Shown: one piece after another, positions 46,276-52,199 of the stretch
Layout of the letters: each line of letters opens with the position of its first letter
How positions within the stretch are numbered: the first letter of the stretch is position 1
Origin: Haloferax mucosum ATCC BAA-1512
GTDB lineage: Archaea > Halobacteriota > Halobacteria > Halobacteriales > Haloferacaceae
NCBI RefSeq assembly: GCF_000337815.1
Contig: NZ_AOLN01000006.1
Span: 124,001 to 188,000, forward strand
Length of the DNA stretch: 64,000 bases
Reading direction: 5' to 3'
Translations under genes and position numbers: made by a program
The notes under the pieces: generated by a model
The model's input: only the letters and a program-made list of their open reading frames with translations
Told to the model about the DNA's origin: nothing
Database searches by the model: none

Positions 46276-46677
46276 TCACGCCGAGTCGAGAACGAGTCGG
46301 ATTCCGTCGTCGTCATCGAAGGCACCCGCAACCCGCGTCTCGCGTCGGAAGCCGAGTGCTTCGTAACACGCCCGAGCACCGTCGTTGTCGGGATGGACCA
46401 ACAACGTGAGTGGTGCGTCGTCGCTCGCCGCGCGGTACGCTTCGAGAAGCGCGGTCGCGCGTCCCTCGCGTCGGGCGTCGGGTGCGACCGCGAGTTCGGT
46501 CACGTGCGTGCCGACGCCGAGCAGATAGCCGACTGGTCGGTCGCGGTCATCGACCGAGACGAAGAGCGTGCCGACCGCCGGCCACGCGTCGAGAAGGGCC
46601 GGCGACGGGTGTGAGACGAGACGCTGGAGCGATTCGACAGCGTGTCTGTCACCGGGGCGGCCACGCCTGACGGTCAC
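46276..46677 (-). CDS. GNAT family N-acetyltransferase
   Basis: A 133-residue acetyltransferase beginning MTVRRGRPGDRHAVESLQRLVSH. Acetyl-CoA region: THVTELAVAPDARREGRATALLEAYRAAS, then LLVHPDNDGARACYEALGFRRETRV. The conserved Q/RxxGxG/A is RREGRA and the C-terminal Tyr is in CYEALGF. RimI-like, but a ribosomal substrate is not shown. The GTG at 46677 overlaps the DUF92 TGA as GTGA, the arrangement that decides the start over an upstream GTG at 46689. The pair is co-transcribed with the DUF92 gene. Confidence 0.85.
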   Translation of the reverse strand: MTVRRGRPGDRHAVESLQRLVSHPSPALLDAWPAVGTLFVSVDDRDRPVGYLLGVGTHVTELAVAPDARREGRATALLEAYRAASDDAPLTLLVHPDNDGARACYEALGFRRETRVAGAFDDDDGIRLVLDSA

Positions 46678-47990
46678 AGCGGAATCCACACCGCCATCGC
46701 ACCGAGTGCGCCCGCGAGTGTGGCGAGGAAGTTGACCGCCTGATTACCGAGTCCCGCGCCCTCGACGGTCGCGCCGAGGAGGCTATCGACCGTCATGCCG
46801 ATGACGCCGCCGGCGAGAACTGCGATTGCACCCGCCGTCGGGAACGGCAGGAAGAACGCGGCGACGGCCGCGATGAGCGCCGCCCCGCCCACGCCGGCGA
46901 CCTCACCTTGCCACGTGACCGCGCCGTCGGTCCCCGGCGGCACCGTCTTGAACGACGTGATGAGCCGCGGGTTGTCGAACAGCCCGCCGATTTCGCTGGA
47001 GAGCGTGTCGCTCATCGCGGCGGCGACAGAGCCGGCAAAGGCGAGCATAAAGAGGTCGGTCCCGAACGCGTGGCCGACCGTCTGCGTCGCGGCGTATCCG
47101 ACGACCGCGACGAGTGCGACCGCCGCGTTGCCGAGAACGTTCCCCGTGCCACGCGCGCCGTCGTTCCCCTCGGCGACGCCGCGTTCTGCCTTGCTGTCGT
47201 ATTTGAACTTCGTTGCGAGCGCGCCGACGCCGAAAAACGAGACGAGAACGACGGCCCAACCGAAGCCGCCGAACACGATGGTCAAAAGAAGCAGTAAGAC
47301 GCCGGTAATCACACCGGCGACCGACGCCGTCCCGAGCGCGTACGCCGCGTACCCGATTGCGACCGTGAAGGCGAACGAGATGACTGTCTGCGTGGGCGAA
47401 ACTGAGCCTGCAAGCGTATCAACGCCCCACAACGAAAGCCCGACGGAGAGCATGACGAGCGGGTCGTCACGCTCGTAGAGGGCGGTTCGAAGCAGTGCGG
47501 CGACGAGACCACCCAGCGCGGCGAGAAGCGTAAACTGGGCGAACGGCAGTTGACGCAGTGGTCCCGTCAGCGAGACGATGGCAATCTGTCCGACCGTCCC
47601 GGCCAGTATCGCGGCGACGACGAACCCCGCCGAGCGAAGGAACTCCTCGTCTGTCGTCGAATCCACCAGTCGCGCGCCGAGGTTGCCGTACGCGAGTATC
47701 AACACTGCCGCGGCGAATATCGGAAGGGGCATCCTGACCCGTGGAACCGTCGCCAGCAGTGCCAGCACGGTGGCGGCGAGGGCGAAGCCGGCCAGCCCGT
47801 TGAGGCGACCGTCTTCCCTGTCACCGGGCCGCGCGAACAGCTCGAAGAGGGGGCCATCGTCGATGACGAAAGCCGCCAAGAGCGCGACTGCGGCGAAGGG
47901 CGCGAACGCGGCCATGCCGAGACTGGGGGCCGCGAGGGCCAACGTCCCGACGACCGCGAACCCGCCCGCTCGCCGTAGTGTGGATGTCAC
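46674..47990 (-). CDS. DUF92/TMEM19-type membrane protein
   Basis: A 438-residue integral membrane protein with about 11-12 segments. The C-terminal half holds the DUF92 hallmark: VSFFGVGALATKFKYDSKAERGVAEGNDGARGTGNVLGNAAVALVAV, ASVAAAMSDTLSSEIGGLF, PRLITSFKTVPPGTDGAVTWQGEVAGVGGA and LGATVEGAG. Related plant protein VTE6 is a phytyl-phosphate kinase, so an isoprenoid-phosphate kinase role is plausible here. The GTG at 47990 (VTSTLRRAGGF) begins the first membrane segment; longer frames add soluble sequence. The genes after it, a GNAT and two prenyltransferase homologues nearby, do not prove a pathway. Confidence 0.86.
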   Translation of the reverse strand: MTSTLRRAGGFAVVGTLALAAPSLGMAAFAPFAAVALLAAFVIDDGPLFELFARPGDREDGRLNGLAGFALAATVLALLATVPRVRMPLPIFAAAVLILAYGNLGARLVDSTTDEEFLRSAGFVVAAILAGTVGQIAIVSLTGPLRQLPFAQFTLLAALGGLVAALLRTALYERDDPLVMLSVGLSLWGVDTLAGSVSPTQTVISFAFTVAIGYAAYALGTASVAGVITGVLLLLLTIVFGGFGWAVVLVSFFGVGALATKFKYDSKAERGVAEGNDGARGTGNVLGNAAVALVAVVGYAATQTVGHAFGTDLFMLAFAGSVAAAMSDTLSSEIGGLFDNPRLITSFKTVPPGTDGAVTWQGEVAGVGGAALIAAVAAFFLPFPTAGAIAVLAGGVIGMTVDSLLGATVEGAGLGNQAVNFLATLAGALGAMAVWIPL

Positions 47991-48109
47991 ACCGTTCGGT
48001 ATCCCCGACTCGCACTTAACCCTCCCGACATCAGAGACGACCGACAGTCGCGCCCACACCCGCACGCCGAACCCGAAGGGTTAGGGGACCCGGCGAACGA
48101 CGGCACGGC

Positions 48110-48718
48110 GTGGGACTGTACGACTACTATCTCGCCCTCCGATTCCGCCTCGACGACGCCGAGGCACCCGAGCACGTCGCGCTCGTCATCACCGAGCGCG
48201 ACCTGCTAGAACAGGGGTCTTACGACACCCTCGAATCGTTCGTCCGCTGGGCGTTCGAGTTCGGAAGCGAACGCGTCACCATCTCCGTGAGCGTCCTCGA
48301 CGAAGCGGTCGTTCCGACACTCGCCCGCGAACTCCGCGACATCGACGTCCACGCCGAAATCGAAGTCCGCGAACCCGGTGACACCGAACGGGCCGACGCA
48401 CCCGTACAGGTCAACATCGGTCTCGGCGGGAAACGCGAGTTCGCCGCCGTCGTCCGGTCGCTCGCCGAGGAAGTCGATGCCGACGAGGTCGACCCCGACG
48501 ACATCGACGCGGAAGATATCGAAGACCGCCTCGTCTTTCCCGACGAACCGGATTTCGTCGTCAAAACCGGCGCGGAGCGCCTGTCGGATTTCATGATTTG
48601 GCAGTCCGTCTACGCCGAACTCTACTTCACCGACGTGAACTGGCGCGACTTCCGGAAACGAGACTACCTGCGGGCGTTGCGGGACTACCAAGACAGACAG
48701 CGACGGTTTGGGCGGTAG
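48110..48718 (+). CDS. Divergent cis-prenyltransferase homologue lacking N-terminal catalytic motif
   Basis: A 202-residue UppS-family protein. Its C-terminal half is well conserved: FVVKTGAERLSDFMIWQSVYAELYFTDVNWRDFRKRDYLRALRDYQDRQRRFG, matching the IRTGGExRLSNF...YxELYFxxxxWPxF...YQxRxRRFG of the family. The N-terminal segment HVALVITERDLLEQGSYDTLESF takes the place of HVAIIxDGNRRWA, so the catalytic Asp and the NRRWA motif are gone. This recalls the NgBR/Nus1 non-catalytic partners of two-subunit enzymes. An intact synthase is 600 bases away on the other strand. Start GTG 48110. Confidence 0.8.
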   Translation: MGLYDYYLALRFRLDDAEAPEHVALVITERDLLEQGSYDTLESFVRWAFEFGSERVTISVSVLDEAVVPTLARELRDIDVHAEIEVREPGDTERADAPVQVNIGLGGKREFAAVVRSLAEEVDADEVDPDDIDAEDIEDRLVFPDEPDFVVKTGAERLSDFMIWQSVYAELYFTDVNWRDFRKRDYLRALRDYQDRQRRFGR

Positions 48719-48915
48719 ACCGAATCACGTGGCGACACTGCCGACACGGTGGGTTGAACGGTGAGCGCCAGCGAACCGTCCAAACGCTGTCGTGCTCGAA
48801 GAGTGCAACAGAAGTCGGCCGAGAGATCGACTTACGCGGCACGCAAGCACCTCGTTGACGCTCTCTCGTCGTCCGCACAGATATATGACCAAGTAATAAC
48901 AATAATACGGGACCC

Positions 48916-49272
48916 ATGCTCTCCACTTCAGCCGACCGGACCGACCTTCTTCCTCCGCCACCGCCGCCCAGCGAGTGGCTCGAAGACGGTCACATCTTCT
49001 TCGCGCTCACGATGCTGGTCATTCTTTGGCTCAACCGACCTGTCTCACCAGACTGGCCGTGGGCGCTCATCGGTGTCGCGGTCGTCCCGGCGTGGTTGTT
49101 CCTCGAATCGCGGTCCGACGGCTGGCGCTCGTTGGTCCCGACTGTCGTCTACAGCGGGGCGGTGTTACTGTTGGGACCGCGGTACGAAGCCGAGTTTATT
49201 GCCGCCGTTCTCGGGCAGAGTACAGCGTTGCTGGGATGGTTCTGCTGGCGGACGTACAGGCGGTGGACTTGA
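48916..49272 (+). CDS. Small membrane protein (118 aa)
   Basis: A 118-residue protein: a Pro-rich N-terminus (LLPPPPPPSEWLEDG), then IFFALTMLVILWLN, WPWALIGVAVVPAWLFLESR, VPTVVYSGAVLLLGPRY and FIAAVLGQSTALLGWFCWRTYRRWT, four membrane segments. Function unknown. AGTAATAACAATAAT near 48892-48906 gives an AT-rich promoter region just before the ATG. It is convergent with the uppS gene, 43 bases between stops. Confidence 0.7.
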   Translation: MLSTSADRTDLLPPPPPPSEWLEDGHIFFALTMLVILWLNRPVSPDWPWALIGVAVVPAWLFLESRSDGWRSLVPTVVYSGAVLLLGPRYEAEFIAAVLGQSTALLGWFCWRTYRRWT

Positions 49273-49315
49273 GAGTCGTCGTAACCAACGGACTCGAACA
49301 CGGCCGCAGACCGAA

Positions 49316-50245
49316 TCAGTCCGCCATCTCGTCGCTTCGCTTCGCCAACTCGGCGGACACCTCGTCGGCCCCCGAAGACGGGAGTTGTTCCCGGAGGCGA
49401 CCTGCCACGGCCCGCGCGTCGGCCAGTTCGACTTCGGCGACGGCCCGGACGAGCGTGACGGCGCGTTCGGTCCGCGTCCGTTGCCACGACCGCTCGCGCG
49501 ACTCGTACGTCCGAATGCCACGGAGGAGGTCAACCCGCGAAAACTCCGGCCAGTAGGGCGCACAGAAGTAGACGGCGGCTTCGTTGCCGTTCGCGTGCCA
49601 CGGGAGGAAGTTCGAGGTTCGCTCGTCGCCACCGGGACGGATGATGAGGTCCACGTCGCGGACGGGCTTCCGAGAGAGGCGGCGGTCAACCGCCGACACG
49701 TCCACGTCGTCCACCGAGAGGTCGCCGGATTCGACGGCGCGACAGACGTCGCGGGCGGCCCCGAGCAGTTCGGCCCGACCGCCGTACGCGAGTGCGACGT
49801 TGAGCGTGAAGCCGTCGTAGTCGGCAGTTCTGGATTCCGCGTAGTCGATAGCCTCACGGACTCTGTCGGGAAGCATGTGTACCTCGCCGATAGCCCGCAC
49901 GGCGACCTCGCGGTCGTGAACGCGGTCGGAGTCGGCGAACTCGTACAGTTTGTTCTCGACGAGGTCGAAAAGCGGTTCGCGCTCGTGGGGCGGGCGGTCG
50001 AAGTTCTCCGTCGAGAACGTATAGAGCGTCAGTTCTTCGATACCGATTTCTTCGCACCACGTCAGCACGTTTTCGGTCGTCTGCGCTCCGGCGCGGTGGC
50101 CGTCTGGCGCGTCGTCGCCGTGTTTTCTGGCGTAGCGGCGGTTGCCGTCCTGAATGATGGCGACGTGGGTGGGAGCACCGCTGATTTCACGAGAGAGCAC
50201 CCGCTCGTACGCACGCCGAAAGCCCTGTCGGACCCACCCGAACAT
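49316..50245 (-). CDS. uppS: (cis)-Polyprenyl/undecaprenyl diphosphate synthase
   Basis: A 309-residue cis-prenyltransferase that extends a prenyl diphosphate with isopentenyl diphosphate to make lipid carriers (dolichol-type in archaea) for glycosylation. The catalytic region THVAIIQDGNRRYARKHGDDAPDGHRAG is complete: Asp in QDGNRRY near residue 33. Later motifs are ELTLYTFSTENFDRP, LNVALAYGGRAELLGA, and DVDLIIRPGGDERTSNFLPWHANGNEAAVYFCAPYWPEFSRVDLLRGIRTYESRERSW. A 55-residue helical C-terminal extension is present. It is probably the catalytic subunit of a pair with the degenerate protein at 48110, which is inferred. Confidence 0.93.
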   Translation of the reverse strand: MFGWVRQGFRRAYERVLSREISGAPTHVAIIQDGNRRYARKHGDDAPDGHRAGAQTTENVLTWCEEIGIEELTLYTFSTENFDRPPHEREPLFDLVENKLYEFADSDRVHDREVAVRAIGEVHMLPDRVREAIDYAESRTADYDGFTLNVALAYGGRAELLGAARDVCRAVESGDLSVDDVDVSAVDRRLSRKPVRDVDLIIRPGGDERTSNFLPWHANGNEAAVYFCAPYWPEFSRVDLLRGIRTYESRERSWQRTRTERAVTLVRAVAEVELADARAVAGRLREQLPSSGADEVSAELAKRSDEMAD

Positions 50246-51137: not shown

Positions 51138-52199
51138 ATGATACAGGCGGACGCGGACCTTTCTCGTCTCGACCGCGCCATCGTCAACGCCTTCCAAGGT
51201 GGCTTCCCCGTCGTCGAACGCCCCTTCGAACCCGCCGCGGCCGCGCTCCGGGAGCGCGGGGTTGACGTGACCGCGACGCAACTCTGCGAGCGAGTCAAGA
51301 CGCTGGACGAAGACGGTGTCCTCTCACGATTCGGCGCGCTCGTCAATGCCGAAGAAATCGGCGGCACGGCGACGCTCGTCGCCATGCACGCGCCGCCGGA
51401 GCGGTTCGACGAGGTGGCAGAGCAAGTAAACGCCCACAGAGAAGTGGCACACAACTACGAGCGCGAACACCCGCATCTCAACATGTGGTTCGTCGTCTCC
51501 GTCGCCGCGGAGTCGCGGGTCGATGACGTCCTCGGCAACATCGAAGCGGAGACGGGCCAAGAGACGTACAACATGCCCAAGCGCCACGAGTTCCACGTCG
51601 GCGCGAAGTTCCTCCTCGACGGCCCCGTCGCAGACGGCGACCTCGACCTCTCACGGCTCGGTCCCGACGTAGAACCCTCGGGGGCACAGACCCTCACGCC
51701 GGCCGAACGGGACCTCGTACTAGAGATTCAGGGCGGGTTGCCAATCACGGAGACGCCCTACGCGGACATTGCCGACGCGCTCGACCAAGAGACCGCGTGG
51801 GTCGTCGAGACGATAAAACGCTTCAACGAAGAGGGGAAGGTACGCCGCGTCGGCGTTATTCCGAACCACTACGCGCTCGGCTACTCGGAAAACGGCATGA
51901 CCGTCTGGAACGTCCCCGACGACATCGTGATGGAAGTCGGTCCCGAAATCGCGTCACTCGACTTCGTGACTCACTGTTACCGCCGACCGCGACACGAAGG
52001 CGTCTGGCCGTACAACTTCTTTGCGATGACCCACGGCCGCTCCGAAGAAGAAAGCGAGGCCCGCATCGAGCGCGTCCGCGACGTCATGAGCGACTACTGG
52101 ACGGTCGGCGACGACGACTGGGACACTCTGTTTTCGACGCGCATCCTGAAGAAGACGGGTATCAGGCTCGACGAGCGCGCCGACGCCAACACGGAGTGA
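51138..52199 (+). CDS. ahbA-ahbB: Fused siroheme decarboxylase AhbA-AhbB
   Basis: A 353-residue fusion of two Lrp/AsnC-type siroheme decarboxylase subunits, turning siroheme into 12,18-didecarboxysiroheme in the alternative heme pathway. Each half has an HTH-like region and an active region: half 1 has AHREVAHNYEREHPHLNMWFVVSV, half 2 has DFVTHCYRRPRHEGVWPYNFFAMTHG. His and Tyr/Arg residues in these motifs are conserved in the family. GTTTATTC at 51107-51114 is a TATA-like box 24-31 bases before the ATG. It leads an operon with the precorrin-2 dehydrogenase and hemA; ahbC and ahbD are not in the window. Confidence 0.93.
   Translation: MIQADADLSRLDRAIVNAFQGGFPVVERPFEPAAAALRERGVDVTATQLCERVKTLDEDGVLSRFGALVNAEEIGGTATLVAMHAPPERFDEVAEQVNAHREVAHNYEREHPHLNMWFVVSVAAESRVDDVLGNIEAETGQETYNMPKRHEFHVGAKFLLDGPVADGDLDLSRLGPDVEPSGAQTLTPAERDLVLEIQGGLPITETPYADIADALDQETAWVVETIKRFNEEGKVRRVGVIPNHYALGYSENGMTVWNVPDDIVMEVGPEIASLDFVTHCYRRPRHEGVWPYNFFAMTHGRSEEESEARIERVRDVMSDYWTVGDDDWDTLFSTRILKKTGIRLDERADANTE

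Follow-up and report, generated by a model that had tools for sequence, protein, structure and literature searches.

The window analysed here is a stretch of 64,000 nucleotides from Haloferax mucosum ATCC BAA-1512 (contig NZ_AOLN01000006.1, positions 124,001 to 188,000). Two genes of the cis-prenyltransferase family lie in it, tail to tail. The first, on the forward strand at 48110..48718, starts with GTG and encodes a protein of 202 amino acids (P), which a PF01255 match in its C-terminal half, a profile match to NUS1 and a fold model mark as a non-catalytic subunit of the NgBR/NUS1 kind. The second, on the reverse strand at 49316..50245, encodes a protein of 309 amino acids (C), assigned as a catalytic DHDDS-like subunit from its PF01255 match (E 3e-66) and its profile alignment with DHDDS. 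The genes are convergent and their stop codons are 597 bp apart, in agreement with an earlier note on this DNA, which had placed a complete enzyme about 600 bases from P. A family search of the whole genome finds P and C as the only PF01255 members; an enzyme of the MM_0014 type was not seen in this search. Automated annotation tends to call both proteins relatives of undecaprenyl diphosphate synthase. An ORF of 118 amino acids between P and C (48916..49272, forward strand) has no family match and no relatives seen outside loci of the same genus; it is probably unrelated to the pair. On the other side, head to head with P, lies the gene of a DUF92 integral membrane protein (46674..48065, reverse strand; PF01940, E 2.8e-55). 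Beyond C, at 51138-52199 on the forward strand, a 353-residue protein consists of fused siroheme decarboxylase subunits, AhbA-like (residues 12-158) and AhbB-like (193-343); its gene adjoins a siroheme synthase-like gene (52201) and hemA (52845).

C matches PF01255 over the whole profile and carries all N-terminal catalytic motifs of the family, DGNRR (residues 33-37; 50135..50149, reverse strand) and FSTENF. DGNRR[YFW]A is conserved in 100 of 101 C homologues. At the place of the RxG motif of homodimeric enzymes, C reads RERSW (residues 250-254; 49484..49498, reverse strand), and RxG was found at the equivalent place in none of the C homologues, both in the alignment of C and in a joint alignment of 61 P and 55 C homologues. 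The catalytic domain is followed by a C-terminal extension (49319..49483, reverse strand) outside the PF01255 match, in a position comparable to that of the C-terminal domain of DHDDS; the C profile can be aligned to human DHDDS across positions 3-297.

In P, PF01255 matches residues 91-201 only (profile positions 109-219, E 5.1e-25). Together with the RRFG tail, this bears out the C-terminal family signature which the earlier note had read in the protein. Its further reading, that P lacks a DGNRR-like motif and has ITERDLLEQ instead, is equally borne out, as VITERDLLEQ of P aligns with IIQDGNRRYA of C. TERDLLE (P residues 28-34; 48191..48211, forward strand) thus replaces the catalytic loop. 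In the joint alignment D33, G34, N35, R36 and R37 of C correspond to T, E, R, D and L in P, the 11 residues after the DGNRR site including H50 of C are deleted, and within the FSTENF region S78, E80, N81, R84 and E88 are substituted or missing. With these catalytic residues lost, P would be unable to hold an allylic substrate in the usual way. Retained are K or R at R203 of C, mostly R and S at R209 and S211, and E at E222. E29 and D31 of P are almost invariant (56 and 59 of 61 rows, respectively), so that this site is under constraint. Across Halobacteria, hardly any variation is seen in the TERDLLE region, in KTGAERLSDF or in the RRFG tail, and more than 60 columns of P are invariant among 33 haloarchaeal sequences.

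The last five residues of P are R198-R199-F200-G201-R202, i.e. RxG plus one terminal residue (R199 to R202; 48704..48715, forward strand). RxG followed by exactly one residue ends 175 of 177 distinct P homologues, the other two ending in KxG plus one, and DGNxR or DGNRR occurs in none of the 177. Neither P nor C therefore combines DGNRR and RxG in one chain; the two motifs are cleanly split, DGNRR on C and RxG on P. The absence from C of the very tail that P keeps is the key evidence for the pair, and it had not been part of the earlier note. In a few haloarchaea the middle of P contains inserts that are acidic or rich in Asp and Ser (L127/G021, L124/G217, L126/L129); these are lineage-specific, and the RxG tail is kept in all of them, also in the very diverged P of G217.

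No transmembrane anchor was detected in P, whose highest Kyte-Doolittle mean over 19 residues is 0.9 and whose sequence starts with the helix that directly precedes the domain. Across positions 16-202 the P profile can be aligned with NUS1 chains, if weakly (E 4e-4 to 4e-3); its match to homodimeric enzymes starts only near position 86. Used by itself, a profile of the N-terminal half gave nothing significant against solved structures; recognition of this half thus needs the C-terminal half as well, or the fold. The fold predicted from a phylum-wide alignment has a mean pLDDT of 85.8 (83 in an earlier model from haloarchaeal sequences only) and matches cis-prenyltransferases over most of its length. 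The top PDB matches listed for it are homodimeric UppS, plant enzymes and DHDDS, with no NUS1 chains among them, and fold comparison therefore cannot separate an NgBR-like from an UppS-like chain.

P is present in 292 of 292 Halobacteria genomes, 281 of which contain exactly two PF01255 members, and practically every well-assembled haloarchaeal genome has both P and C. Such a distribution of P, combined with its near-invariant motifs, excludes chance. A match to the P profile, full length in most cases, was found in 136 of 138 genomes sampled from the phylum. One genome (G072) shows P alone, in an assembly of 120 contigs, hence an absence of C cannot be claimed for it; an apparently truncated P in G235 was rejected, because the contig ends there. 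G298 and G306 (family f18), related members of the phylum, have no detectable PF01255 protein at 91% completeness. In a tree of 31 P, 31 C and 5 MM_0014-type sequences, P (support 99), C (85) and the MM_0014 type (100) are separated from each other, with members of the Methanosarcinaceae inside both the P and the C clade. Related organisms cluster together within P and within C, which dates the duplication before the families of the phylum. The pair is therefore phylum-wide and old, and not a haloarchaeal peculiarity. This refines the earlier proposal of a "haloarchaeal equivalent" of the known two-subunit enzymes, which is otherwise supported. One member of the Methanosarcinaceae (G309; L218, L219, L225, L228) encodes two proteins of the C type, along with one P and an enzyme of the MM_0014 type.

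P and C are convergent in all 53 haloarchaeal loci in which both were identified, with stop codons often 2-120 bp apart, and in all 16 loci from named organisms with both genes inside the flanks, as well as in several genomes of other families; many of these loci were chosen for the closeness of the genes, and the counts thus describe orientation, not frequency. In some haloarchaea (e.g. G009, G017) and in the Methanosarcinaceae seen here the two genes are far apart. In all 68 haloarchaeal loci analysed, which are subject to the same selection, the gene diverging from P is that of the DUF92 protein. Among 80 loci from named organisms it lies head to head with P in 41, including Methanoperedens, ANME-2, Methanocella and Argoarchaeum. 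The spacing between DUF92 and P is about 70-250 bp in most loci (L003-L072, L153-L211), which come from several classes of the phylum. No DUF92 gene was seen next to P in ANME-1, in two loci from a single haloarchaeal genus (L098/L126, L129) or in Methanolobus and related organisms.

We consider it highly probable that one heteromeric haloarchaeal cis-prenyltransferase is built from P and C as its two subunits, with C catalysing and the RxG tail of P completing the active site of C. This reading follows from the division over two chains of motifs that homodimeric enzymes hold on one, and from an ending of P that equals the ending of NgBR. The earlier note had already suggested a catalytic and an NgBR-like partner and had asked if the genes co-occur across haloarchaea; their co-occurrence in these genomes, the reciprocal loss of DGNRR and RxG, the linkage, the full-length, if weak, profile match to NUS1 and the methanosarcinal members of both clades now speak for it. 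C would bind the allylic starter and isopentenyl diphosphate (IPP) and carry out the condensations by means of its DGNRR and FSTENF motifs. P, of the same fold and without catalytic loop and FSTEN region, would be unable to catalyse and would pair with C through the usual dimer face. Its RxG tail, with the free carboxylate one residue on, would reach into the active site of C, where, like the tail of NgBR in DHDDS, it would hold the substrates at their pyrophosphate/Mg end. We expect a long polyprenyl diphosphate as product, converted to C55/C60 dolichol phosphate for haloarchaeal glycosylation; dolichol phosphate of Haloferax volcanii is C55/C60 (PMC3827465). The comparisons directly show how the motifs are distributed, that the genes co-occur and are linked, that they descend from a common ancestor with the methanosarcinal pair, and what fold P has; binding of P to C, insertion of the tail and chain length of the product are what we infer from them. 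Several observations were counted against a heteromer: P and C are convergent and do not form one operon, some haloarchaea and most Methanosarcinaceae have them at separate places, an anchor of the NgBR type is missing from P, the match of P to NUS1 is weak and NUS1 chains are not among the top fold matches listed. In the literature searched, no report of a heteromeric cis-prenyltransferase from haloarchaea was found.

Alternatively, C might function by itself as a homodimer, and P might be a diverged paralogue that serves another purpose, e.g. as a prenyl-lipid-binding regulator. The complete set of N-terminal catalytic motifs in C is compatible with this, as is the weak activity of DHDDS alone (PMC7573591), and the near-invariant E-x-D of P at the former catalytic loop means that this face may do something. 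Still, such a division of roles appears improbable, given that C is without RxG throughout the phylum while P has it at its exact C-terminus, that P and C accompany each other in practically every well-assembled haloarchaeal genome, and that the orthologues from Methanosarcina form a heteromer (PMC8131916).

It is even harder to regard P as a short cis-prenyltransferase that remains catalytically active with a rebuilt active site, and we rate this as very improbable. P has indeed kept the residues aligned with R209, S211 and E222 on the IPP side and K or R at R203, but it has no FSTEN motif, the loop that bears the catalytic Asp, Asn, Arg and His has been exchanged or deleted, and between the P strands 55-61 and 84-87 there is no space for the helices found in the C subunit. 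A decaying pseudogene or a truncated duplicate of C, as the shortness of P and its missing catalytic motifs might suggest, has a negligible probability. Its presence in every Halobacteria genome sampled and its more than 60 invariant columns already refute this explanation, and the tree gives P a single ancient origin.

If P and C are one enzyme, the dolichol synthases of haloarchaea and of most related members of the phylum are heteromers, and assays of C alone would mislead. Moreover, the split known from humans would have an old archaeal parallel with a soluble and genetically tractable partner. An arrangement described for humans and other eukaryotes and for one methanogen (Methanosarcina) is very probably spread across an archaeal phylum, and class-wide in haloarchaea. 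The DUF92 protein is a candidate polyprenyl-lipid enzyme, as most linked loci have its gene in head-to-head orientation with P. The plant phytyl-phosphate kinase VTE6 is a member of the DUF92 family. For VTE6, PMC11926002 confirms the function only. Neighbourhood and family together suggest a role of DUF92 in polyprenyl phosphate metabolism. More tentatively, and with a good deal of doubt, DUF92, P and C may constitute a phylum-wide polyprenyl-carrier module in which DUF92 acts on the product of the synthase or on a recycled intermediate, e.g. as a polyprenyl or dolichyl phosphate kinase. By analogy with the anchor of NgBR in eukaryotes, the DUF92 protein might also place the soluble synthase at the membrane. 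The archaeal dolichol phosphate pathway is uncharacterised beyond the reductases (PMC5088576). The DUF92 neighbour hints at an unassigned step in it, and the module, if real, would fill part of this gap.

Bacterial homodimeric UppS has family and fold in common with P and C and differs in having DGNRR and RxG on one polypeptide, which are here divided over two. The MM_0014-type archaeal cis-prenyltransferase (7caq, 7vq9) belongs to the same family and phylum as P and C, forms homodimers (PMC8131916) and has kept its own DGNRRW; it constitutes the separate clade mentioned above. Like C, human DHDDS is a catalytic subunit with a C-terminal extension and without RxG; like P, NgBR has no catalytic loop and ends in RxG plus one basic residue, whereas its transmembrane anchor is missing in P and the sequence similarity of P to NUS1 is weak. 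In the human complex both substrate sites of DHDDS receive a contribution from RxG of NgBR: R290 is able to replace a Mg ion, IPP is contacted by G292, the terminal K293 touches catalytic arginines through its carboxylate, and either deletion of K293 or addition of one residue impairs the activity of the human enzyme (PMC7573591). Yeast Nus1 is without a canonical RxG (PMC7573591), and the motif is therefore not strictly needed in the partner role.

One of the closest described systems is found within the phylum itself. Two Methanosarcinaceae genomes (G401, G381) encode three PF01255 proteins each, one P, one C and one MM_0014 orthologue, the last being close to the solved MM_0014 and its Methanosarcina acetivorans counterpart. 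By elimination via this orthologue, the methanosarcinal P and C correspond to MM_0618 and MM_1083 of Methanosarcina mazei, a safe conclusion as long as M. mazei is like its relatives. A similar heteromeric enzyme has reportedly been found in Archaeoglobus fulgidus. MM_0618 and MM_1083 are described as paralogues forming a heteromeric enzyme with C45-50 products (Emi et al. 2019, cited in PMC8131916). These would be the same two orthologous subunits as in haloarchaea, P and C falling into the same clades. The haloarchaeal genes differ in usually being convergent neighbours, as compared to the unlinked genes in the Methanosarcinaceae examined, and the haloarchaeal product is probably longer, C55-60 as against C45-50.
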